From a bacterium (GTDB lineage: Bacteria; Bacteroidota; Bacteroidia; Flavobacteriales_D; Crocinitomicaceae), in the NCBI GenBank assembly GCA_024742305.1, contig JANSYQ010000001.1, positions 434,001 through 498,000 of the forward strand: a stretch of DNA of 64,000 bases, read 5' to 3'. Position numbers and translations under genes: made by a program. Positions 8,342 to 61,560 of the stretch are shown here, piece by piece. Positions within the stretch are counted from its first letter, which is position 1. Each line of letters starts with the position of its first letter. The notes beneath the pieces were generated by a model that was not told the DNA's origin, did no database searches, and worked only from the letters and a program-made list of their open reading frames with translations.

Positions 8342-10678
8342 TTATTGTTCGTTGTTTTCGTCAACAATAGTTACCTCAGCATCAGGAGCTTCTTCAGCTT
8401 TTGGCGCTTTCACTACGTTTTTGTCAATCGTGAACTTGATTGCGTCCGTAGCCGCTTTCGTTCTGAGGTAGTACATTCCTGTTTTCAATCCTTTCTCCCA
8501 TCCGTAGAAGTGCATTGAAGTCAGCTTCCCGAAGTTTGCGTTCTCCATGAAGATATTCAATGACTGTGATTGACAGATGTAGGCTCCACGATCAGCTGCT
8601 TGATCCAAAATGGCTTTCTGAGAAATTTCCCATGCTGTTTTGTACAAATCTTTCAATCGTTGTGGAATCTCCTGAATGTTTTGGATGGATCCATTCGCCG
8701 CCATGATTTTCTGACGCATTTCTTGGTTCCAAAGTCCTTCACGAACGAGGTCTTTCAATAAGTGCTTGTTCACGATGATGAACTCCCCTGAAAGTACTCG
8801 GCGCGTGTATACGTTGGACGTATATGGCTCAAAACACTCGTTGTTTCCTAGGATTTGCGCTGTAGACGCTGTTGGCATTGGCGCAAGCAACAATGAGTTG
8901 CGAACTCCGTGCTCTTTTACTTCTTCTTTCAACACATCCCACTCCCAACGATCTGTAGGTGTTACACCCCACATATCGAACTGGAACACACCTTTTGATG
9001 TTGGAGAACCTTCGAATGTTTCATATGGCCCTTGTTCTTTCGCCAAATCTTTTGACGCCGTCATGGAAGCGTAGTAAATCGTTTCGAATACTTCGCGGTT
9101 GAGTGCTTTTGCTTCTTCTGACTCAAATGGATATCCTAGCATAATGAAAGCATCTGCCAACCCTTGTACTCCCAATCCAATTGGACGGTGACGCATATTT
9201 GAGTTACGTGCCTCCTCTACTGGGTAGAAGTTTCCATCGATGATTTTGTTCAAGTTCAATGTTGCTTGGTACGTTACTTGGAACAACTTTTCGTGATCAA
9301 AAGTTCCTTCTTCCGTGATGAATTTCGGCAATGCTAACGATGCCAAGTTACATACGGCCACCTCGTCTGGTGCTGTGTATTCGATGATTTCTGTACACAA
9401 GTTCGATGACTTGATGGTTCCAAGGTTCTGTTGGTTCGATTTCGCGTTTGCGGCATCCTTGTACAACATGTATGGTGTTCCTGTCTCAATTTGAGACTCT
9501 AGAATCTTGAACCAAAGGTCTTGCGCTTTGATTGTTTTGCGTCCTTTTCCTTCTGCTTCGTACTTAGTGTACAATGCTTCGAACTCTGCACTGTGCGTTT
9601 CAGAAAGTCCTGGGCATTCGTGCGGGCACATTAACGTCCAGTCTCCGTTTTCTTTCACACGCTTCATGAACAAATCTGGAACCCATAGAGCGTAGAACAA
9701 GTCACGTGCTCGTTGCTCTTCTTTACCGTGATTTTTCTTCAAATCCAAGAAGTCGAATACGTCTGCGTGCCAAGGCTCGATGTACATTGCGAAAGATCCT
9801 TTACGCTTTCCACCTCCCTGATCTACGTAACGTGCTGTGTCGTTGAATACGCGCAACATCGGTACAATTCCGTTAGACGTTCCGTTCGTTCCTTTAATGT
9901 AAGAGCCTGTTGCACGGATATCGTGAATAGCCAATCCAATTCCTCCGGCAGACTGAGAAATTTGCGCACAGTTTTTCAATGTGTCGTAAATTCCTTCAAT
10001 GCTATCTTCTTTCATTGTTAACAGGAAACAAGAGGACATTTGCGGTTTTGGCGTTCCTGCGTTAAACAAGGTTGGTGTTGCGTGCGTGAACCATCCTTCT
10101 GACATCAAGTTGTACGTTTCGATCGCTGAGTCAATATCTTCTTTGTGGATACCAACTGCCACACGCATCAACATTTGCTGTGGACGTTCTGCAATCTGTC
10201 CGTTCAGTTTCAATAGGTAGGAACGCGTCAATGTTTTGAACCCGAAGTAGTCGTAACGGAAATCGCGATCATAAATGATGCTTGAGTCCAAACGGTCTTT
10301 GTTTTCTTGGATAATGTCGTAAACGTCATCTGCCAATAGCGCTGCATTTTCCCCTGTCTTTGGATCGATGTACGTGTATAAATCAGACATTACTTCCGAG
10401 AACGTCTTCTTCGTTTCTTTGTGCAAGTTGGATACTGCGATGCGTGATGCTAGCAAGGCATAATCCGGGTGATCGATAGTTTTGGCTGCGGCTACCTCCG
10501 CTGCAAGGTTATCCAACTGTGTGGTTGTCACACCATCGAATAATCCTTCAATTACTTTCATTGCAACTGCTTCCGGGGATACCAATGGATCCAATCCGTA
10601 ACACATTTTTACAATGCGAGCTGTGATTTTGTCGAATTTTACAGCTTCTTTTCTTCCATCTCTTTTTACTACATACAT
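8342..10678 (-). CDS. nrdA: Ribonucleoside-diphosphate reductase class Ia, large (alpha) subunit
   Basis: NrdA reduces ribonucleoside diphosphates to deoxyribonucleotides using the radical generated on NrdB. The 778-residue protein has an N-terminal ATP-cone (about residues 1-90) for allosteric control, the alpha N-domain and the catalytic barrel. Active-site residues are present: C217 (SSCFLL), C428 with E430 (NLCTEI) and C443 (VAVCNL), plus the tyrosines of [10 protein letters not shown]. The C-terminal tail after about residue 745 is Ala/Glu/Asp-rich and has no cysteine, whereas class Ia enzymes normally carry a C-terminal Cys pair that re-reduces the active site. It lies 88 bp downstream of nrdB, with a hairpin between them. 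Confidence 0.97.
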
Positions 10679-45120: not shown

Positions 45121-45136
45121 TTTTTCACGTGAAACA
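45121..45136. promoter_or_regulatory. parS-like site (ParB binding), site 1
   Basis: TTTTTCACGTGAAACA differs from the parS consensus TGTTTCACGTGAAACA at one position. It is intergenic. Confidence 0.7.
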
Positions 45137-45549: not shown

Positions 45550-47421
45550 CTACCTTCCTAAGTATACCAACAAAACAGAAACGTCGCTTGGTGAAACACC
45601 ACTAATACGTGAAGCCTGACCTATCGTTGCTGGGCGAATTTGATCCAGCTTTTCTCGTGCCTCCGTACTTACACTACCCAATTTAGAATAGTCCATATCA
45701 GCCGGAATTTTTACTTCTTCCAAACGATTCATTTTTTGAGCCACGTCTTGCTCACGTGAAATATAACCGTCATACTTTAACTGGATCTCTGTTTGTGATA
45801 CGATATCAACATGTTCCGATGTTAACTCATCTGCAACTTTCTTCGAGTCCACGCTCATTTCTAAAACGTCTTTGATTTCAATGTTCGGCCGTGTGATCAA
45901 TGAACTCAATTTAACTTGCTGGTTGATTGGTGCGCTAGATTTACTCTCTAGTATTCTATTGGCGACATCAGGTGCTACCCCTTCTTTACGCAGCGACTTT
46001 TTCAACTGCTCTGTTCCTTGTACTTTCTTGTTCACTTTTTCCATGGCTTCATCGTCTGCCAGCCCTAAAGCGTGTCCAATTGGCGTCAAACGTATATCTG
46101 CATTATCTTGACGAAGCAAAATTCGATATTCTGCTCTACTGGTGAACATACGATATGGCTCTTTGGTACCTTTGGTTATAAGATCATCTATTAATACTCC
46201 GATGTATGCATCACTTCTACTTAGAATAAACTCACCTTGTTCTTTCACTTTACGGTGGGCGTTTATTCCAGCCATTAGCCCTTGACATGCTGCTTCCTCG
46301 TATCCCGTAGTCCCGTTTATTTGACCAGCGAAATACAAGCCTTCGATTTTCTTCGTCTCCAGTGTATGTTTCAACTGTGTTGGTGGAAAGTAATCATACT
46401 CGATTGCATAACCGGGACGGAACATTTTCACGTTTTCGAATCCTGGAATTGTTTGCATAGCCGCATATTGGATTTCTTCCGGAAGCGATGTACTGAATCC
46501 ATTCACATATATCTCAACGGTATTCCACCCTTCCGGCTCGACGAAAATCTGATGACGATCTCTATCCGCGAAACGATTGATCTTATCTTCTATACTTGGA
46601 CAATATCTTGGTCCCGTACTTTTAATGGCTCCATTAAACATTGGTGAACGGTCAAAGCCTGATCGTAACAATTCATGTGTATCGGAATTGGTGTAAGTGA
46701 TATGACAAGATCGCTGTTCTTTTAGAGCCCTAGTATTCGAAAAACTAAACTTAGACGGATCATCATCCCCTAATTGTTCTTCCATTTTAGAATAGTCTAA
46801 AGAACGACCATCTACCCTTGGAGGGGTTCCTGTCTTCATACGTCCCGACTCAAACCCCAATTGAATTAATTCTTCAGTGATACCGGTTGCTGCGCGTTCT
46901 CCAGCCCGACCACCGCCGAACTGTTTTTCACCCAAGTGAATCAGTCCATTCAAAAAGGTTCCGTTGGTCAACACCACTGACCTTGCTTTCACTTGAACTC
47001 CAATAGATGTTTTGACACCAACAACTTTATCACCTTCAATAATGAGGCCGGTACACATGTCCTGCCAAAAGTCAACGTTTGGATTTCGCTCTAACAACAA
47101 ACGCCATTCTTCAGCGAAACGCATTCGGTCATTTTGGGTTCTTGGTGACCACATTGCAGGGCCCTTCGAACGGTTCAACATACGAAACTGAATAGCACTC
47201 AAATCGGAAACAACACCGGAGCCCCCTCCAAGCGCATCGATTTCTCGAACGATTTGCCCCTTCGCCACACCTCCCATTGCAGGGTTGCAACTCATTTGCG
47301 CAATCGTATTCATATTCATCGTGATCAACAACACAGAACTTCCCAACTTCGCAGCAGCATTCGCAGCCTCGCAACCAGCGTGGCCCGCTCCCACTACAAC
47401 AACATCATACTCCTTCAACAT
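45550..47421 (-). CDS. mnmG: tRNA uridine-5-carboxymethylaminomethyl modification enzyme MnmG (GidA)
   Basis: MnmG is the FAD-containing partner of MnmE in wobble-uridine modification. The 623-residue protein has the N-terminal FAD motif [20 protein letters not shown], the conserved [11 protein letters not shown], the [12 protein letters not shown] segment, and the C-terminal helical domain that binds MnmE ([20 protein letters not shown]). Length is normal. It is the last gene of a minus-strand operon after ybeY, and parS sites lie 9 bp upstream of its start and in the downstream gap. In many bacteria gidA lies near oriC. Confidence 0.98.
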
Positions 47422-47429
47422 AAAATCAA

Positions 47430-47445
47430 TGTTTCACGTGAAACC
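47430..47445. promoter_or_regulatory. parS-like site (ParB binding), site 2
   Basis: TGTTTCACGTGAAACC has one mismatch (last base) to TGTTTCACGTGAAACA and a perfect 14-bp palindromic core. It lies immediately upstream of mnmG. Confidence 0.8.
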
Positions 47446-47520
47446 TTTTTCCAATTACATATCGCTATCAATCGACAATGTTCACACCACAAAATTACAA
47501 TAGAAAATAGTCTTTACGAA

Positions 47521-47536
47521 TGTTTCACGTGAAACC
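47521..47536. promoter_or_regulatory. parS-like site (ParB binding), site 3, overlapping the ybeY stop codon
   Basis: TGTTTCACGTGAAACC again has one mismatch. The last codons of ybeY (TTC ACG TGA on the minus strand) lie inside it. Confidence 0.8.
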
Positions 47537-47935
47537 TAAATAGAAATCTTCCTTTTCACGCATCTCACTTCTTTCTTTATCGGACTTATCCTTATACCCA
47601 ATAATATGCAAAACTCCATGAACTACCACTCTATAAAGTTCGTTCTTCCAGTCAACTTGCAAATCACCAGCATTCTCTTTCACCCTATCCACACTAATCA
47701 ATAAATCACCACTAATAACATCATCTTCTCTATAATCGAAAGTAATTATGTCTGTATAATAGTCGTGGTTTAGGTATTGCTTATTCGCCTCTAAAATATG
47801 TGTATCCGAACAAAACACTATACCTACTTCACCCAACTCACAACCTTCCTTATCGCAAACCGTCGACAGCCATGAAACAAAAAATTCCGGATTTACATCC
47901 AGAATTTCAGTGTCCTCATATTGAATTGAAACCAT
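47525..47935 (-). CDS. ybeY: Endoribonuclease YbeY
   Basis: YbeY is a zinc metalloprotein involved in 16S rRNA maturation and ribosome quality control. The 136-residue protein has the metal motif HGVLHIIGYKDKSD, where the third position of the canonical H-x3-H-x5-H motif is Asp (HGVLH-IIGYK-D) and not His; a similar variant is, to my recollection, common in Bacteroidota. The ITFDYREDDVISGD segment is typical. Its start overlaps the stop of the kinase gene (TAATG), and it is followed by mnmG after 103 bp containing two parS sites. Confidence 0.93.
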   Translation of the reverse strand: MVSIQYEDTEILDVNPEFFVSWLSTVCDKEGCELGEVGIVFCSDTHILEANKQYLNHDYYTDIITFDYREDDVISGDLLISVDRVKENAGDLQVDWKNELYRVVVHGVLHIIGYKDKSDKERSEMREKEDFYLGFT

Positions 47936-48348
47936 TACTTACTAAAGTAAATTGTTACGTTTCTACCATTGTCTTTAAACTCCACTTCTTCTGCTAAGGA
48001 ACGCATAAGGAAAATACCACGTCCATGTTCTTTCTCAATATTTTCTGGAGCTGTTGGATCCGGTAAATTCATAAAATCAAAGCCCTTACCTTGATCCTGA
48101 ACACTAAAACAAAAATCGGTCTCTTTATCCCCTACTGAAACATCAACACTTAGATTCTTATCCCCATTGTTTCCATGTTGAATTGCATTATTCACAGCCT
48201 CTGTTACTGCCACCAATACATGTCCGTAATAATCTTCGTTGATACTTAACCGAGAACAAATAGAGTCGATGAGTGATTCTACTTTATTAATAGACCCAAA
48301 ATCTGACGGAATCGAAATCTTCTCCACTACAACATAACCATCCTTCAT
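47935..48348 (-). CDS. Anti-sigma-type serine kinase/ATP-binding protein (HATPase, RsbW/SpoIIAB-like)
   Basis: The 137-residue protein is a stand-alone GHKL ATPase domain with N-box EAVNNAIQHGN, G1 box DQGKGFDF and G2 box HGRGIFLMRSL. This is the form of RsbW-like anti-sigma kinases. No anti-sigma antagonist (STAS) or sigma partner is adjacent, so its target is unknown. It sits between the DUF4175 gene (14 bp upstream) and ybeY (1-bp overlap), a linkage that I believe recurs in Bacteroidota. Confidence 0.88.
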   Translation of the reverse strand: MKDGYVVVEKISIPSDFGSINKVESLIDSICSRLSINEDYYGHVLVAVTEAVNNAIQHGNNGDKNLSVDVSVGDKETDFCFSVQDQGKGFDFMNLPDPTAPENIEKEHGRGIFLMRSLAEEVEFKDNGRNVTIYFSK

Positions 48349-48362
48349 GCTATCTTTTACTC

Positions 48363-51300
48363 TTAAAAGACACTATTGAAGTATTCATTTGCTCTGTCCT
48401 TATAATACTTACTATAAGCCGGATCTACAGCGCGCAATAATTCAATTTGTCTTAGTTTTTCCTTGTTATACTCGTCAAATCGAATTTGGTTACTATAATT
48501 TTCATTTTTTGGTGATTTCGACTCTCTTTTTTCGTCGAACCCTCGTTCCATTATTGCTTTCTCACTTTCTAACAAACGAGTCAATATCTCCTTTTGTCGC
48601 TTGATTGAATTGTTATCAAGTCGCTTATTAATGATGTCTCGTTCCTGCTCTTCCAACTCTTTAATTAGGTCGTTTAATTTGTTTCCTTCTCCTGATCCGT
48701 CTTTATTCAATTCCTTTCGAAGCTGTTCAAGTCTGCGGCGAATCGCACCTTGCTCAGCAGCCATTTTCGCCATTTGTTTGCTTCCCATTCCTAATTGACC
48801 CATTCCACCCTGACCAGGTTTTTCACCGGGTTTTTGTCCAGGTTTATCTCCAGGTTCTTTACCTCCTTCTTGCTGACCTTTCTTCATAGCGTCCAATTGC
48901 TTTTGAAGCATTTTTTTCATTGACTCACCACTCATTCCTTCACCAGGTTTAGGCATACCCTTTCCGCCAGGTTTGTTACAACTTCCACTACCCGGCATTT
49001 GATTACGTATGGAGTTTTGCATCTGCTGAAGGCTCTCATTCAACATCAATGCAAGATTGTTATAACTCGTCATTACATATTGCTGGTGAATGGTCAAATC
49101 ACGTCTTCTGCGCTCATCAATATCCTCTAGGGAAAGTTCATGGTTCGCTCGAATTTGATTTAATTCGTCATCTATAAACTTGGCAATTTTTGGTTGGCGC
49201 TTTGCCAATTCATACAAACTATCAGCTACGATTTTCGTGTCGTCTATAATTCGTCTTTGTCTTCTTGAGTGCGTTTTAAATGCCGGATCTGTGTCTGCAA
49301 CGCGCTCTAGATTAAACATTGTTTCCTCTTGGTCGAAACTGAGGCTAACTAAACTCTCTAATATATTACGGAGCATAGTCATGTCCTCTTGTTCTTGTTG
49401 CTGATTCGCCTCTTGCTGCATCATGTCCATTTGCTCGGCCATCTGCTCCATTTTATCTGAGGCATTCTGCTGACTTTCTCCAGCTTTACCGGATTTCCCT
49501 TTGTTTAAATTCTGTTCAGCATCATTTAAATCTTCTTGAACTTCTTCGGCATTTTGTTGTTGGTCCCCCATATCCATAGGGCGAGAAAGATCATTATTCA
49601 GGCTATCCATTTCTTTGATATCCTCCTTGATTTTCTCAAACTTTTCGTCAATTTCCCTTTGCGCCTCTTTCTGTTCTTCCGTTACTTCTTTCGAGTCCTT
49701 CGTTTCTTCCGCAAGCTTTTCTTGTTCTTTTGCTAGTTCCTTTAGTTGTTCTTCAATAGCATCAATTTTCTCATCAACCTGCATCTTTTTCAGCATTTCC
49801 ATTGTGCGGTCCAGCTGTTTATTCATGTCTTCCGTGCTCATTTCGAGTTGCTCCATGTTTTCTTCGAGCATCTCCTTATTCTGCTCCTTCATGAGTTCCT
49901 CTAGTTGGTCCAAAAGATCACGAAGCTCATCATCCATAAGTTCTTCAAGCAAATCCTCAATTGCTTCTTGCTTCTCCATCAACTCCTCATCCATTTCGGA
50001 TAATTGGTTCTTCTCCTCAACGCTATTCTTCATCTCCTCTTGTAGGTTCTGAATGTCCTCTATTAGCGATTTGTGATCTTCTTGAAGTTGATTTACTTGA
50101 TTCTCTTGGTTCCAGTTTGATCGATTTGAGTTCATCGACTCTTTTCGTAGCTTCTCCAAATCCTTTTTGAATTGAGAAGCCTTCTCCATGACACTGGAAA
50201 GATCTTCTTTCGCCTTTTCCTGCTCTTCTTCACGCTTGTCGTTGAGCTCTTCTAGGTTTGGTAGTTTGTAAACAAAAGAACGGCTGCTAGTAGCCTTACT
50301 CCCATTCACACCATCGTTGTCATAGACCACGAAGCGATACTCAATTCTATCGTTCAGTTTCACTTTTTCTCTTCTGAAATCAACTGCGAAATTGAACGGG
50401 GATTCAGTTCCTAGCACGTTTCCAACATTCATGCTCTCCTCGCGCTTAGAACCATCCTCAGAGGTAATTGTGTACACAAATCGCAAACCATTCAATCCGT
50501 AATCATCGCCTACAACTCCTGAGAAATAGCGAATACCGTCTTTAATTGAGTCCTGTACTTCTTCTACTTCAATACGTGGATATTCATCTTTAATTACATC
50601 TATCGACAAGGCCGTGGAGTCCAGTTTTCCGGAAGTTTTATTCATTAGGACAATTCGTGCGTTCGCATCATTTAAGAATCGCTTATTAACGCTAAATCCT
50701 TGTTTTTTAAACACTTGCGGATTCTCATTGATCCAAAATTGAACTTCATCACTGTTCTTGGTTAGAATACTCCAATTCACTGTCGTTCCTTCTGGGATGA
50801 TTAAGTCTCCAGCATTCTCCACTACTTCGTTTTCCTTTCCTAAATACTTTGGATATGTTAACGTCGCCTGCAGTTTACCAATAGCCGTTTTCGCAATTAC
50901 GTCTACGTGGTAATCTTTACTCGTGAATTTCTCGTTCTCGTGAGAAGCAACAAATTGGAAGTTCATATCCTCACGCACTTGAACTAACTTTCCAGCGAAT
51001 CGATTCTTCGCCACTTTTTCCAATAAAAACGTTCCTTGTTTGGACTTCACATAGACCTTCTTTGGAATTACTGAGCCCGATAAGGAAACTTCAAATGGAA
51101 CATCCTCTCCCTCTTCTACTGCCTCTAAATTGGACACTAATTTGTATTCAAAAGGTGCCTCCGGTTTGTACTCTTTATTGAAGTTTACTACGCGATCGGT
51201 TCCTGAGGTATACAGATCTGGTTTGAAAATTCCGATGCTAAACATGATCACTACAATCGGCATTACCCATACTGCGTAGCGTTTGTTTTCTCCTAGATTG

Positions 51301-51743
51301 ATGGCTTCCGTAAATGGAACGGAATTCAGTTTAGAGCTGCGCTGTTGTACGCTCGCCTGAATTAACTCGTAGTCGCGTGAGTTCGGGTCCAAGCGGTCAT
51401 TCAGTTGTAGGGTATTTAAAAGTCGATCTGAGATGTTTGGAAAGAACCTTCCGATAATATTTGATGCTTGGTAACGGTTGATTCGTTTACCAAACGATTT
51501 TAGTTTCAACAATGGAATAATCACGAAGCGAATCATAATTAAAGTGTTCACGAAAATGAACCCAAAAAATAGGCTTGCGCGAACCGCTGAATTAAACCTT
51601 CCAATGTACTCCAACGTGATTACCGACAAATAGGTAAACAACAAAACACCGATGAAAAGAATGGCTCCTTTCACCATTTGGTTCTTGTAATACTTTCGAA
51701 TGAAAGCATCAATTTGGTTCAATAAACGATCAAAACTACTCAT
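48363..51743 (-). CDS. Large DUF4175-like membrane protein with coiled coil
   Basis: The 1126-residue protein has N-terminal membrane helices (about 24-45, 55-77 and 155-175), a beta-rich periplasmic part (about 180-500), a very long acidic Glu/Lys/Gln-rich coiled coil (about 505-800), a Gly/Lys/Pro-rich low-complexity stretch (about 920-1000, GGKEPGDKPGQKPGEKPGQG) and a C-terminal coiled coil ending YYKDRANEYFNSVF. It fits the DUF4175 family, whose function is not known. It starts an operon with the RsbW-like kinase, ybeY and mnmG. The long charged repeats produce opposite-strand frames that are not genes. Confidence 0.85.
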   Translation of the reverse strand: MSSFDRLLNQIDAFIRKYYKNQMVKGAILFIGVLLFTYLSVITLEYIGRFNSAVRASLFFGFIFVNTLIMIRFVIIPLLKLKSFGKRINRYQASNIIGRFFPNISDRLLNTLQLNDRLDPNSRDYELIQASVQQRSSKLNSVPFTEAINLGENKRYAVWVMPIVVIMFSIGIFKPDLYTSGTDRVVNFNKEYKPEAPFEYKLVSNLEAVEEGEDVPFEVSLSGSVIPKKVYVKSKQGTFLLEKVAKNRFAGKLVQVREDMNFQFVASHENEKFTSKDYHVDVIAKTAIGKLQATLTYPKYLGKENEVVENAGDLIIPEGTTVNWSILTKNSDEVQFWINENPQVFKKQGFSVNKRFLNDANARIVLMNKTSGKLDSTALSIDVIKDEYPRIEVEEVQDSIKDGIRYFSGVVGDDYGLNGLRFVYTITSEDGSKREESMNVGNVLGTESPFNFAVDFRREKVKLNDRIEYRFVVYDNDGVNGSKATSSRSFVYKLPNLEELNDKREEEQEKAKEDLSSVMEKASQFKKDLEKLRKESMNSNRSNWNQENQVNQLQEDHKSLIEDIQNLQEEMKNSVEEKNQLSEMDEELMEKQEAIEDLLEELMDDELRDLLDQLEELMKEQNKEMLEENMEQLEMSTEDMNKQLDRTMEMLKKMQVDEKIDAIEEQLKELAKEQEKLAEETKDSKEVTEEQKEAQREIDEKFEKIKEDIKEMDSLNNDLSRPMDMGDQQQNAEEVQEDLNDAEQNLNKGKSGKAGESQQNASDKMEQMAEQMDMMQQEANQQQEQEDMTMLRNILESLVSLSFDQEETMFNLERVADTDPAFKTHSRRQRRIIDDTKIVADSLYELAKRQPKIAKFIDDELNQIRANHELSLEDIDERRRRDLTIHQQYVMTSYNNLALMLNESLQQMQNSIRNQMPGSGSCNKPGGKGMPKPGEGMSGESMKKMLQKQLDAMKKGQQEGGKEPGDKPGQKPGEKPGQGGMGQLGMGSKQMAKMAAEQGAIRRRLEQLRKELNKDGSGEGNKLNDLIKELEEQERDIINKRLDNNSIKRQKEILTRLLESEKAIMERGFDEKRESKSPKNENYSNQIRFDEYNKEKLRQIELLRAVDPAYSKYYKDRANEYFNSVF

Positions 51744-51782
51744 AGCGACTACTCGAACTATCGAAAATACAATAATACATCC

Positions 51783-51797
51783 TTGTATTCAATACAA
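51783..51797. promoter_or_regulatory. 15-bp palindrome upstream of the DUF4175 operon (possible operator)
   Basis: TTGTATTCAATACAA is a perfect 7-bp inverted repeat around one central base, 40 bp upstream of the DUF4175 start in the gap before gltX. No regulator can be named. Confidence 0.35.
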
Positions 51798-51870
51798 TAA
51801 ACGTTAATTAACAGTACATTCTTGTGTGCGGTTCGTTCAATCAAATCGCCCACCATTACTATTCATTCCG

Positions 51871-51878
51871 TATCTTTG
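51871..51878 (+). promoter_or_regulatory. Predicted promoter -7 box of gltX-folB
   Basis: TATCTTTG, 22 bp upstream of the gltX ATG. Confidence 0.55.
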
Positions 51879-51900
51879 CCCTCAAATTAAAGATTGAATT

Positions 51901-53424
51901 ATGTCACAACCCGTTCGTGTACGATTCGCACCATCACCAACAGGACCTCTTCACATGGGAGGAGTTCGCACTGCATTGTATAACTATTTGTATGCTAAAA
52001 AGCACAATGGAACCTTTATAATTCGTATTGAAGATACGGACCAAACGCGTTTCGTTGAAGGTGCGCAAGAGTACATTTTGGATGCTTTGAATTGGTGTGG
52101 AATCATGCCAACGGAAGGACCAGGAATTGGTGGTGATTACGGACCGTATGTTCAATCTGAACGTAAGGAGATGTATCGACCTTATGCCGAGCAATTGGTA
52201 CAGGAAGGGAAAGCGTATTATGCATTTGACACTTCCGAAGAGTTGGATGCTATGCGTGAGCAAGCGAAGCAACTCGGGATGCCTAATTGGCAATACAACA
52301 GTGTTACAAGAAGTAATTTAAAGAACTCTTTAACTCTGCCAGCCGACGAAGTTCAAAAGCGATTGGACTCCGGAGAACCTTACACGATTCGATTCAAAAT
52401 GCCGCGAAACGAAGATGTGCGTTTTGAAGATGAAATCCGTGGATGGGTGGTTGTAAATACCAACAACTTGGACGATAAAATCTTGTTCAAATCGGATGGT
52501 ATGCCAACGTATCACTTAGCGAATATTGTGGATGATCACACCATGGCGATCTCACATGTGATTCGCGGGGAAGAATGGTTACCCTCTGCCCCATTGCACG
52601 TTTTGTTGTACAAAGCTTTTGGTTGGGAGTGTCCAAAGTTTGCGCACCTTCCATTGATTTTGAAACCGAACGGAAACGGAAAATTATCGAAGCGTGACGG
52701 AGACAAAGGTGGTTTCCCTGTTTTCCCGACCGACTGGAAAACATCCGAAGGAGAAATCTTTCCAGGTTACCGCGAACAAGGATATTATCCGGAGGCTTTT
52801 GTGAACATGCTTGCTTTCTTGGGTTGGAACCCTGGAACTCCACAAGAAATTTTCTCACTTGAAGATTTGTGTGAAGCGTTTACTTTGGAACGTGTTTCGA
52901 AAGCGGGAGCTAAATTTGATCCAGATAAAACAAAGTGGTTCCAGCAACAACATTTACGTTTGCGTGATGATAAAGTATTGGCTGAAGAATTGAAAAATTT
53001 AGTTGATACCGATCTATCCGTTGAGCAATTAACAACCGTAAGTAGCTTGATGAAGGAGCGCGCCACTTTCATTCAGGATATTGAAATCGAAGGTGATTTT
53101 CTTTTCTCTGCACCATCTTCCTACGATGAAAAAACGGTACGCAAGAAATGGAAAGAAGAAGCTCCAGGATTGATGTCGGAATGGATGACAATTTTAGAAG
53201 GTATTTCCACATTTGATGCCGCGACTATCGAGACAGAATTTAAGTCGATGTTGGAAGCAAAAGAGCTTGGAATTGGACGCGTTCTTCCATTGTTCCGTTT
53301 GTTGCTAACCGGTAAAGGAATGGGACCAAGCATGTTTGAAATTGCAGAATTCCTAGGAAAAGAAGAGACTTTAAACAGAATGAAGTCTGGTATTGAAGCT
53401 ATTGCCCAAGTTCAGCAAGCATGA
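51901..53424 (+). CDS. gltX: Glutamyl-tRNA synthetase
   Basis: GltX charges tRNA-Glu (or tRNA-Gln in a discriminating/non-discriminating manner that sequence alone does not settle). The 507-residue protein has the HIGH-type motif in APSPTGPLHMGG at residues 11-22, IRIEDTDQTR, and the KMSKS-type KLSKRDG near residue 260. The C-terminal anticodon-binding helical domain is complete. The folB start overlaps its stop by 4 bp (ATGA). Confidence 0.97.
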   Translation: MSQPVRVRFAPSPTGPLHMGGVRTALYNYLYAKKHNGTFIIRIEDTDQTRFVEGAQEYILDALNWCGIMPTEGPGIGGDYGPYVQSERKEMYRPYAEQLVQEGKAYYAFDTSEELDAMREQAKQLGMPNWQYNSVTRSNLKNSLTLPADEVQKRLDSGEPYTIRFKMPRNEDVRFEDEIRGWVVVNTNNLDDKILFKSDGMPTYHLANIVDDHTMAISHVIRGEEWLPSAPLHVLLYKAFGWECPKFAHLPLILKPNGNGKLSKRDGDKGGFPVFPTDWKTSEGEIFPGYREQGYYPEAFVNMLAFLGWNPGTPQEIFSLEDLCEAFTLERVSKAGAKFDPDKTKWFQQQHLRLRDDKVLAEELKNLVDTDLSVEQLTTVSSLMKERATFIQDIEIEGDFLFSAPSSYDEKTVRKKWKEEAPGLMSEWMTILEGISTFDAATIETEFKSMLEAKELGIGRVLPLFRLLLTGKGMGPSMFEIAEFLGKEETLNRMKSGIEAIAQVQQA

Positions 53425-58117: not shown

Positions 58118-58133
58118 TAAATGGAATTTGAAA

Positions 58134-58141
58134 CAAAGCTA
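58134..58141 (-). promoter_or_regulatory. Predicted promoter -7 box of rpiB
   Basis: TAGCTTTG on the minus strand, 16 bp upstream of the rpiB start. Confidence 0.5.
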
Positions 58142-58721
58142 AACCATATTCACTTTTCCATCAAGTTTTAAACATTGAAGAAATCAACACTTTCTACAAC
58201 GCCCGTAAATAGAGGAAGTAGAATGGTAAATTATTCACGTTGTTTTACACAATTGTGTTGGTAAGGGTTCATAAGTCGACAAATCTTTTTCTAGGAAGTT
58301 TGCTAAAAATGTATAAGCAGCTCGCAGATGGAATTTCAAAGAAAAAAACACCTTAATTTATCCCGACTTTTCCTTGACAAATGAACACAAATTGAATCGG
58401 ACAAACGTATAATTCTTTTCACATGTTACCGCTGTGTAAAATTGTGGATAAACCCACCTAATTCAACAAGCATCAAGTAAAGAAGCATGGAAAACGATGT
58501 GAATAACTGCACCTATGATCTTGATAACCTAAATAGCAAACATTTCGTTCACAATTTCCAAACATATTCACAGCACTAATAAGAATTAATAAATCTTCTT
58601 TTTTAAAAAAATATATATCTATTCTCTTGTATTGTGAACAACAAATGACCCAGTTGTATTTTTTGAATCAAATTTCTATCTTCTAGTGAATGTATACGTA
58701 ACTATTTAATAATCAATAAAG

Positions 58722-58729
58722 TAAATTTG
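58722..58729 (+). promoter_or_regulatory. Predicted promoter -7 box of the histidine kinase gene
   Basis: TAAATTTG matches TAnnTTTG, about 53 bp upstream of ATG 58783. A weaker CATCTTTG lies at 58768-58775. Confidence 0.45.
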
Positions 58730-58782
58730 TTCTGGGCGGCGCGGTGCGGCTGTTGGCAAAATTAACGCATCTTTGTAACTGT

Positions 58783-61560
58783 ATGGTTTCTAATAACCAA
58801 CGAATGATTAAGAAATTATTGGCGCTTCTCGAGTACGATTCTCCACGGTTTCGTTTGTTCCACAATCCTGAAAATAGCTTCCTTCGGATTGCGTCAGGAC
58901 AGGCATTTGCTGCTTTAATAGTTGCCCCATTGTACGCATACATTATGTATCGTACCAACGCGCCTGAAATCTATGTTTGGAACGGAATCATCTATACGAT
59001 TGCTTACTTGGTAATTTGTACAATATTTTACTTTGTAAGAACGCTGAGGTCCTGGTTGATGTATGCGTTCATACTGGAGTTTTTCGTCCTAACATTCATC
59101 GCATATTGGCAACTTCGTTCATCCGGTTTTCAACAGGCCGATTTGGTGTTTTTCTTCCTGTTCTATCTAATTTCTAGCATTTCCATTCAACGCTTGTACC
59201 CAGCGATTTTATATCAACTCGGTGTGCTACTCGCTTTTTTGGCAGATTACGAACAACTAGAAGCCGGTTCTAAAGTTCCATTTTTAGTCGTAGGTGTATT
59301 TCTGATTGTAGGATTGTCCATTTGTACCGTCGTGTATTTGCGCCGACAATTGTTGTTCTCCATCAAAGACTATATTTCCTACTTGAGGCGTATTGTAAAC
59401 AATCCTGGAAGTGGGTACGTTTTGTTGAAACAATCCAGTTTGATTGTCGTGGATCACAACGATGAAGTACTGAAGCTTTTGGATATTGATATCGAAAACC
59501 TTGCTGAAACATTTTATTCTTTCTTTAATGATGACGAGCGAAAAACCTTGGCTTCGTTGAAGCAAGGGCACAAATTCAAAAAGCAAATCAGTCTTTCAAG
59601 ACACAACGCAAGGAATTATGCTGAAATAAGAATCACGAATATAATTCTGAAAAACGATGCGTATCTGCTCGCTTCGATATCCAACACAACCGACGAAGTG
59701 CTGAAAAGAGAAGAGCTGCAATTGAAAGAAAAACGATACAGAAACCTCTATTTCCGAAATAAAGCGGGGGTTTTTACCCTGAATAGTCGAACGCAAGTTA
59801 TAGAAGCGAACGATACCTTTTTTAAGATGTTTGAAAACTCGCTAAAAAAGGGCGATCGCCTTTTCAAGGATGAAATTTATGCCGACTGGTCCTTCATAAT
59901 GGAATCGTTGAAATCTTCTGAGAAGGCACAAAGTTATCAAACGCAATACCAGCTGGATTCCGGAGTGCAAAAAACCTTCGTTTTTAGTTGGTATATCGAC
60001 GAGCAAACCGGTTATATTGAAGGTTCTGTGATCGACTTAACCAGTATAGAAAAAGCCAATCAGGCACTGAAGGAAAGTGAAGAAAAATACCGTCTTATTT
60101 ACGAGGAATCCAACGATGCCATTTTGCTTCTTGATGGAGATAGAATTGTTGATGCAAACAAGCGCACTGAAGAAATGTTCGGACTGAACCGAGCCGAGTT
60201 ACTTACCAAAAATCTCTTTCATTTATCCTTTGATTCAGACGTGAATTTAGAGAAGAGGTACCAGCAAGAAAAAGCACGTCTTTCTACTTCAAGAAGTATT
60301 CGATTTAATTGGTTGTTCGATGGTGTTGAAGGTGTTATTGAATCCGAAGTTTCCCTCGTAGAGGTAATGATTGGGAACAAGCTTTTCTATCAATGTGTAA
60401 TTCACGACACCACAGAACAAAATAAATTGGCGAAGGAGCAACTTCGTGCGGAGCTAGCGGAAGAAACGAACGTAAAGCTTGCCGCTGAAATCGAAGAACG
60501 AATTAAAGCTGAAACGAAATTGCAAGAACAGTTTTTGAGAACCCGTGCCATTTTCGAGAGTTCATCGAATACTTTGTTGATTACCTCAAAACCAAACGGA
60601 GACGTTACTTTCTTCAACTCGCACAGTCATAATTACTTCCAAAAAAGATTTGGACTCTTGATAATTAAAAATCGTAACTTCTTTGATTACCTAGAGGGAA
60701 TTGTATCACCACGTCGTCGCCGAATGCTGCGTATTGTATTCGCCAGTGTTCGTAAAGGAGCTTCACGGCAGTATGAAGTACGATTGACGCGAGATGGCGT
60801 AGATTTTTGGTTGGAACTTTTCGTAAACCCAATTTTCGATACGGAAGGCAATGTGGTAGAGATTTCCATGGTGGCACACGACATCACAGAGAAGAAACGC
60901 TCAAGTATTGGCATTGAAGAATCTCTGAAGGAAAAAGACGTGCTACTCAAGGAAATCCACCACCGCGTAAAAAATAACCTACAGGTGATATCGAGTATTC
61001 TCAACCTGCAAAGTTCATTTGTGAGTGACGAAAACACGTTGGGTATCCTCCAAGAAAGTAGAAACCGTATACGTTCCATGGCAATTATTCACGAAAACTT
61101 GTACCGTACCGAAGACTTTGCGAGTATCAAGTTTGATAATTACCTGAGAAATCTAACGGCGAACCTTATTGCATCTTACAGTGTTGATCGCACGATAGAA
61201 TTTGACGCAGATTTACAGGAGGTGGACCTAGTTTTGGATCAAGCCATCCCATGTGGACTTCTTACCAATGAACTCATCACCAACGCACTGAAATATGCTT
61301 GGGAAGGACAAAAAGGAGCGGCCAAAATTCATCTGAAACTAGAACAAGAAGGCGAGATGATCAAGCTAACGATAGCGGACAATGGAGTAGGACTTCCACA
61401 AGAGTTTGAAGACATGCAATCAGACACTTTGGGACTTCAATTAGTAACCACGCTTGCGGAACAGTTAGATGCCGAACTAAAGGTAAATACCGAGCAAGGT
61501 ACAGAGTTTCAGCTCATTTTTGAAAACGTAAAACGCGTAACGATACACCCCGGTACATAA
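58783..61560 (+). CDS. PAS-domain membrane sensor histidine kinase (HisKA_2 type)
   Basis: The protein of 925 residues from ATG 58783 has about six membrane helices in residues 30-205, then several PAS-like domains (about 225-310, 320-430, 430-560 and 600-710, joined by coiled-coil linkers such as KLAAEIEERIKAETKLQEQ), a HisKA_2 dimerisation domain with the phospho-acceptor H of EIHHRVKNNLQVISSILNLQ near 724, and a HATPase domain (LLTNELITNALKYAW, DNGVGLP). It is 77 bp upstream of a LytTR response regulator gene, its probable partner. ATG 58804 is an alternative start. The sensed signal is unknown. Confidence 0.93.
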   Translation: MVSNNQRMIKKLLALLEYDSPRFRLFHNPENSFLRIASGQAFAALIVAPLYAYIMYRTNAPEIYVWNGIIYTIAYLVICTIFYFVRTLRSWLMYAFILEFFVLTFIAYWQLRSSGFQQADLVFFFLFYLISSISIQRLYPAILYQLGVLLAFLADYEQLEAGSKVPFLVVGVFLIVGLSICTVVYLRRQLLFSIKDYISYLRRIVNNPGSGYVLLKQSSLIVVDHNDEVLKLLDIDIENLAETFYSFFNDDERKTLASLKQGHKFKKQISLSRHNARNYAEIRITNIILKNDAYLLASISNTTDEVLKREELQLKEKRYRNLYFRNKAGVFTLNSRTQVIEANDTFFKMFENSLKKGDRLFKDEIYADWSFIMESLKSSEKAQSYQTQYQLDSGVQKTFVFSWYIDEQTGYIEGSVIDLTSIEKANQALKESEEKYRLIYEESNDAILLLDGDRIVDANKRTEEMFGLNRAELLTKNLFHLSFDSDVNLEKRYQQEKARLSTSRSIRFNWLFDGVEGVIESEVSLVEVMIGNKLFYQCVIHDTTEQNKLAKEQLRAELAEETNVKLAAEIEERIKAETKLQEQFLRTRAIFESSSNTLLITSKPNGDVTFFNSHSHNYFQKRFGLLIIKNRNFFDYLEGIVSPRRRRMLRIVFASVRKGASRQYEVRLTRDGVDFWLELFVNPIFDTEGNVVEISMVAHDITEKKRSSIGIEESLKEKDVLLKEIHHRVKNNLQVISSILNLQSSFVSDENTLGILQESRNRIRSMAIIHENLYRTEDFASIKFDNYLRNLTANLIASYSVDRTIEFDADLQEVDLVLDQAIPCGLLTNELITNALKYAWEGQKGAAKIHLKLEQEGEMIKLTIADNGVGLPQEFEDMQSDTLGLQLVTTLAEQLDAELKVNTEQGTEFQLIFENVKRVTIHPGT

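Follow-up and report, generated by a model that had tools for sequence, protein, structure and literature searches.

No gene is present in the gap that separates rpiB from a histidine kinase gene with PAS and HisKA_2 domains (assigned by Pfam), and an original prediction, made from the sequence alone, had proposed this region at positions 58118-58743 as the chromosomal replication origin (oriC). Whether the gap holds an origin, and which of its sites would form the core, was addressed in the window, i.e., the whole analysed stretch of 64,000 nucleotides (contig C40, positions 434001-498000), in the assembly of 4.09 Mb in 56 contigs, and among relatives. By rpiB, the nearest named loci come from metagenome genomes labelled Crocinitomicaceae, Fluviicola and Flavobacteriales, and the genome accordingly belongs probably to the Crocinitomicaceae (order Flavobacteriales). 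The two flanking genes diverge in transcription, and the gap between them must hold both promoters. According to the list of open reading frames, no ORF of at least 80 amino acids is located entirely within the gap, and a minus-strand ORF of 81 amino acids overlaps its end. As the sequence surrounding an in-frame ATG at 58804 is kept in two close relatives, the kinase gene may start at this codon, which would extend the gap to about 58803. The predicted lack of genes thus held for the interior of the gap, whereas its end may have to be shifted. The gap recurs among relatives: at 29 of the best 30 rpiB loci among 80 relatives (own locus included), the first 350 bases upstream of rpiB were free of an open frame of 90 codons.

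All boxes named in the original prediction were found in the gap. A perfect DnaA box TTATCCACA (58443-58451, minus strand) and the one-mismatch box TTATTCACA (58498-58506, minus strand) are read from the sequence 46 bp apart on the same strand, and several relatives have boxes at about the same places. TTTTACACA (58433-58441, minus strand) is separated from the perfect box by a 1-bp spacer and occurs a second time, 190 bp from the first copy (58243-58251, plus strand), on the rpiB side of the gap next to TTATTCACG (58231-58239, plus strand). Further boxes are ATATTCACA, described below, and the box-like site TTGTTCACA (58633-58641, minus strand). Altogether, seven sites with at most one mismatch to TTATNCACA occur within the 626 bp of the gap, the highest count on contigs C40 and C19 (594 kb; mean 0.56), and all 626-bp windows with at least six box-like sites on these contigs overlap the gap. 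Two further places on C40 reach five sites, one of which (C40 481571-482217, window 47571-48217) lies beside parS within coding sequence. Five other intergenic gaps examined between 45.0 and 61.7 kb contained no box-like site. Across the whole window, TTATCCACA with at most one mismatch was not enriched (17 seen, 16.3 expected from shuffled sequence), as would be the case if degenerate boxes had clustered by chance in A+T-rich DNA. As no other cluster in these 594 kb reaches its size and the element within it is kept across many genera, the probability of such a chance cluster is considered negligible.

The boxes of this clade appear to follow a relaxed consensus. In 37 gaps, own included, TTATNAACA was found 65 times compared to 5.2 in shuffles and TTATNCACA 28 times compared to 1.4, while the forms with G or T at the variable position occurred 5 and 4 times compared to 1.2 and 3.8; as the 37 gaps are mutually related, these counts are not independent. 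The window's own gap contains TTATNCACA and no TTATNAACA. The counts suggest TTATN(A/C)ACA as the DnaA box of the clade, and searches limited to TTATCCACA would under-count such sites. The DNA-binding domain reads KDHATV in all eight DnaA proteins examined and RDHTTV at the corresponding site of the best-matching solved DnaA (8btg); a relaxing effect of this substitution on the box is a guess.

To locate the core of the putative origin, loci of relatives were aligned. When 23 of the best 30 rpiB loci were aligned (seven loci were left out), conserved blocks became visible, the strongest of which consists of a box (mostly TATNMACA), a few bases, YTAATA, more TAA-like triplets and then T- and A-rich DNA. 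In the window, the box of this block is ATATTCACA (58564-58572, plus strand), which falls in conserved columns of a larger alignment (A1) and differs by one mismatch from TTATNCACA; in relatives the box at this place is mostly TATNMACA. It is followed after 4 bp (GCAC) by the DnaA-trio-like repeats TAA TAA GAA (58577-58585, plus strand) and by an A+T-rich stretch (58586-58625), which is presumably the region melted first. The A+T-rich stretch noted in the original prediction was confirmed, with 84% A+T across 58568-58617. TAATA is invariant in 36/36 rows of A1, and small insertions beside the trios distinguish relatives. Directly abutting ATATTCACA, a possible weak tandem box TTCCAAACA (58555-58563, plus strand; TTCTACACA in some relatives in A1) has four mismatches to TTATCCACA and is of uncertain status as a box.

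This arrangement is that of the basal unwinding system BUS (DnaA boxes, spacer, DnaA-trios), which is known originally from Bacillus subtilis; tests followed in six other species, and none of the six named in the available text is a member of the Bacteroidota (PMC8287927). The rule given there is a DnaA box with at most two mismatches to TTATCCACA within 16 bp of at least three NAN trios (PMC8287927), and ATATTCACA, with two mismatches to TTATCCACA, the spacer GCAC and the three trios conform to it; the rule by itself is loose, and the weight is carried by the conservation of the element. As in the systems of that article (PMC8287927), A+T-rich DNA lies beyond the trios and more boxes lie upstream; unlike them, the trio-side box in this clade is mostly TATNMACA and not TTATCCACA, and dnaA is far away. 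In a refinement of the original prediction, ATATTCACA, rather than the perfect TTATCCACA, would be the key box of the origin.

A sequence-only model (R1) was built from the 36 relatives in A1, which left out the own genome and seven distant loci of 44 anchored ones. On the own genome, R1 matched at the gap with 67.5 bits (E 2.9e-18; window 58492-58633, plus strand; G000:C40:492492-492633), the next best scored place reaching 17.4. Among the family genomes, 135/155 were matched, 30 of these being training genomes, and five of the 135 had a second match; matches in the 36 training rows exist by construction. Twenty of the 155 had no match under strict filters: eight of them also had no rpiB match, four had rpiB at most 450 bp from a contig start, and the other eight fell in neither group. 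Outside the family, R1 matched 10/31 genomes. The box-trio-A+T pattern, which was also scanned for directly, was present in the gap at 29/30 best rpiB loci and at 15/37 more distant ones; the pattern is loose, with five extra matches in those gaps besides the ones at the expected place, and the rpiB locus of G055, at a contig start, was left out. The conservation in relatives that the original prediction had proposed to look for was thus observed. In two distant loci (L066, from position 1029 on, and L071), the predicted start of the downstream gene (MNSPNNN) runs through the box-trio element, so that either this start may be wrongly placed, or gene and origin may overlap.

With an E-value of at most 0.01, R1 matched 23 of 80 named loci, always upstream of rpiB, although the named loci overlap genomes that had already been searched and these matches are therefore not independent. 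When 41 of these 80 loci were scanned for the pattern, eight had matches: the core element in two Crocinitomicaceae, and different-looking matches in six Flavobacteriaceae. Aligning 18 of the 80 (Flavobacteriaceae rpiB gaps, L210-L256) revealed, by eye, a layout related to that of the core element yet distinct from it, in which CAT-type triplets, perhaps a different type of trio, come after a box resembling TATTAACA.

A conserved region upstream of rpiB could also serve rpiB or the downstream gene, as a regulatory region or a leader RNA, and the gap has to contain the promoters of both divergently transcribed genes. The position of the element relative to its neighbours bears on this explanation. 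In 88 of 100 matched family genomes outside both earlier 80-genome searches the match lay within 1.5 kb of rpiB, and in 12 it lay further away. Of the 51 genomes matched in a first survey, 15 (own included) were outside training, and in 12 of these 15 the match was within 1.5 kb of rpiB; the untrained matches away from rpiB were those of G034, G046 and G073, the last one being weak (17.5 bits). The separation is clear in G046, G146, G157 and G178. It is less clear in G091, G095 and G182, in which rpiB and the element may be separated by a contig break, in G173, where the distance is only 2.1 kb, and in G098 and G099, where rpiB lies at most 30 kb away on the far side of parS. In G046, rpiB is located on contig C1 with an upstream region lacking the element, and the element is found on C29 together with a kinase, a response-regulator-like gene, mnmG and parS. 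In addition, the gene across the gap from rpiB varies among relatives, and can encode a histidine kinase, a LytTR regulator, a PAS protein, a MORN_2 protein or glycine dehydrogenase.

The element was instead found to stay near parS in several genomes with rpiB elsewhere. Twelve genomes in which more than 1.5 kb separates the element from rpiB were tested for parS-like sites (G073, G090 and G092 were left out): in ten, such a site lies 4.2-16.5 kb from the element on the same contig, and in G034 and G097 element and site are on different contigs. In the first survey, 33 genomes had both the element and a perfect parS, which were 5-22 kb apart on the same contig in 26 and on different contigs in seven. 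As the element remains near parS with rpiB elsewhere and the opposite neighbour is variable, the segregation region explains the element better than a neighbouring gene does. Furthermore, RNA folding of the gap was no better than that of shuffles (z 0.30), the gap contained no match to an Rfam family at the gathering threshold, and the DNA next to the trios varies among relatives by small insertions. A regulatory region or leader RNA is therefore very improbable as an explanation of the element.

The own genome displays the same linkage, as the original prediction had noted. The only two perfect parS sites GTTTCACGTGAAAC in the whole 4.09-Mb assembly are located at 47431-47444 and 47522-47535, beside mnmG and 10.6 kb from the gap, and the assembly scan identified a parS-like site with one mismatch at 45122-45135. 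The minus-strand ORF at 45550-47421 is taken to be mnmG (gidA). A ParB match above the cut-off is encoded on contig C43 of the same genome. In genera g2 and g11 (G095, G098, G099, G107, G109 and G117), GTTCCACGTGAAAC, not GTTTCACGTGAAAC, is the predominant parS-like site around the element, and G107 has five parS-like sites near the element within 2.1 kb.

The short distance between the gap and parS may also be read differently, i.e., the origin may be located nearby in the parS/mnmG region, the gap being only a reservoir for DnaA binding or a regulatory region that travels along. The distance of 10.6 kb, the two further five-box windows on C40, one of them (47571-48217) beside parS in coding sequence, and a skew minimum away from the gap in the own genome would all fit with this. 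The trio element is, however, located in the gap, and the two intergenic gaps examined beside mnmG are without boxes.

GC skew, also proposed as a test in the original prediction, was sampled in relatives, and its outcome favoured an origin at the element. In 8/8 of them (G037, G050, G066, G043, G107, G109, G117 and G098), the 20 kb to the left of the element had negative and the 20 kb to the right positive skew, the latter being barely positive in G066 (+0.002). Within 40-kb windows centred on the element, the cumulative minimum was positioned at -76 bp (G107), +103 bp (G117), -100 bp (G043) and -160 bp (G050) from an anchor in the element, and at -1985 bp (G037), -3210 bp (G109), +5954 bp (G098) and +14125 bp (G066) in the others; centring makes a minimum in the middle more likely, but not with a precision of 160 bp. 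The parS-like sites lie 7.5-17 kb off in the single-contig genomes G050, G107, G109 and G117. With the local minimum at most 160 bp from the element in four relatives, an origin in the parS/mnmG region is improbable. Samples taken up to 1.8 Mb away (nearest 20 kb included) had negative skew on the left in 7/10 (G037), 9/10 (G050) and 9/10 (G066), and positive skew on the right in 9/10, 8/10 and 10/10, respectively; samples of the wrong sign also occurred near the element, at 40-60 kb in G037 and G050. In G107, G109 and G117, far-left samples were negative in 5/5 and far-right samples positive in 4/5, and in G043 one of five right samples was negative and two of six left samples were not negative.

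In the own genome, the skew agreed only loosely with the minimum that the original prediction had expected at the gap. The cumulative skew of C40 falls from 16981 to 498506, placing the minimum 5.9 kb past the element, and of the other arm the contig includes no more than 29 kb. Among 964 positions, the gap ranks 44 by its local skew step, and a single-changepoint fit picks position 10,000 instead of the gap, so the skew of the own genome was rejected as strong evidence of an origin. Strong local negative skew at 46001-52000 of the window, largely over the minus-strand ORF 48363-51743, is probably due to gene composition, and it blurs the skew minimum of the own genome.

An origin at dnaA was also considered. 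The own dnaA is located on contig C19, another contig than the gap, and in single-contig relatives dnaA lies 1.62 Mb (G037), 0.46 Mb (G050) and 1.65 Mb (G066) from the element. No window on C19 reaches five boxes, and the skew samples flanking dnaA in G037, G050 and G066 did not change from negative to positive; this position was therefore rejected. The skew along C19 itself drifts noisily from negative to positive.

Based on the clustering of boxes, the conservation of the element and the skew of relatives, the gap is very probably the chromosomal replication origin, with a BUS-type layout. Onto the sites, their clustering and conservation, the parS linkage and the skew change observed here, a course of initiation can be projected from the known BUS of other bacteria. 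DnaA would load on the boxes of the gap and, starting from ATATTCACA (58564-58572), a DnaA filament would extend onto one strand of the trios (58577-58585) and open the A+T-rich stretch to about 58625. Helicase loading would follow, and two forks would depart in opposite directions. The new origins would be segregated by ParB, bound to parS at a distance of 10.6 kb.

Systems of this kind are already known; new are the exact location of the origin across the family, the relaxed box TTATN(A/C)ACA and the conserved CTTTTNCTAGGA motif. A limited literature search yielded no paper on DnaA-trios in Bacteroidetes, and to our knowledge DnaA unwinding has not been tested in Bacteroidota, for which a concrete box-and-trio sequence is now offered. 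By the title of a 2012 study by Xu et al., oriC plasmids reportedly replicate in Cytophaga hutchinsonii, which shares the phylum with this genome and belongs to another order. Flavobacteriaceae origins have been predicted in the mnmG region and were said to agree with GC skew, in Mariniflexile litorale (PMC11278836) and in Algorimicrobium (PMC12843772), and in the available text of both articles the prediction is by Ori-Finder 2022 and named by the marker gene mnmG. In comparison with these predictions (PMC11278836, PMC12843772), a gap and a core element are defined here, and were tested by moved neighbours and skew. For Mariniflexile, a start at dnaA disagreed with GC skew, and the figure legend swaps oriC and ter relative to the text (PMC11278836). 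In Blattabacterium Bge, a Flavobacteriales endosymbiont and thus from the same order as this genome, neither dnaA nor DnaA boxes were found and the origin was placed in dapB by skew (PMC2768785). In the limited collection of literature searched, the available texts contained no statement on an rpiB-adjacent origin. The origin signature recurs in many relatives far from dnaA, a gene often taken as start marker, and one Flavobacteriaceae genome was initially numbered from dnaA contrary to its skew plot (PMC11278836). An exact origin enables growth rates to be estimated from coverage ratios, genomes to be numbered correctly and oriC vectors to be designed for the family.

The gap contains a further conserved motif, CTTTTTCTAGGA (58285-58296, plus strand), which represents the CTTTTNCTAGGA motif and has a similar position in many relatives. 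By itself, the motif is not specific to the gap, as C40 carries three perfect copies, two of them elsewhere. An inverted partner with at most one mismatch, starting 52-53 bp on, was present at 8/30 rpiB loci and is degenerate in the own genome. The left arm (at most two mismatches) occurred at 21/31 loci with a kinase, PAS or LytTR neighbour, at 0/30 with MORN_2, at 3/5 without a neighbour match and at 0/1 with glycine dehydrogenase, an association that is confounded with ancestry. CTTTTNCTAGGA, paired in some relatives with an inverted copy about five helical turns off, could be a clade-specific control site to which an initiation regulator binds, for which the LytTR response regulator from the adjacent kinase-regulator pair may be a candidate, but we consider this unlikely; the motif may simply be the operator of the neighbouring gene. 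At the more distant loci L061-L097, a MORN_2 repeat protein was the best match of the gene opposite rpiB in 28/37 cases, which suggests an old rpiB-origin-MORN arrangement.
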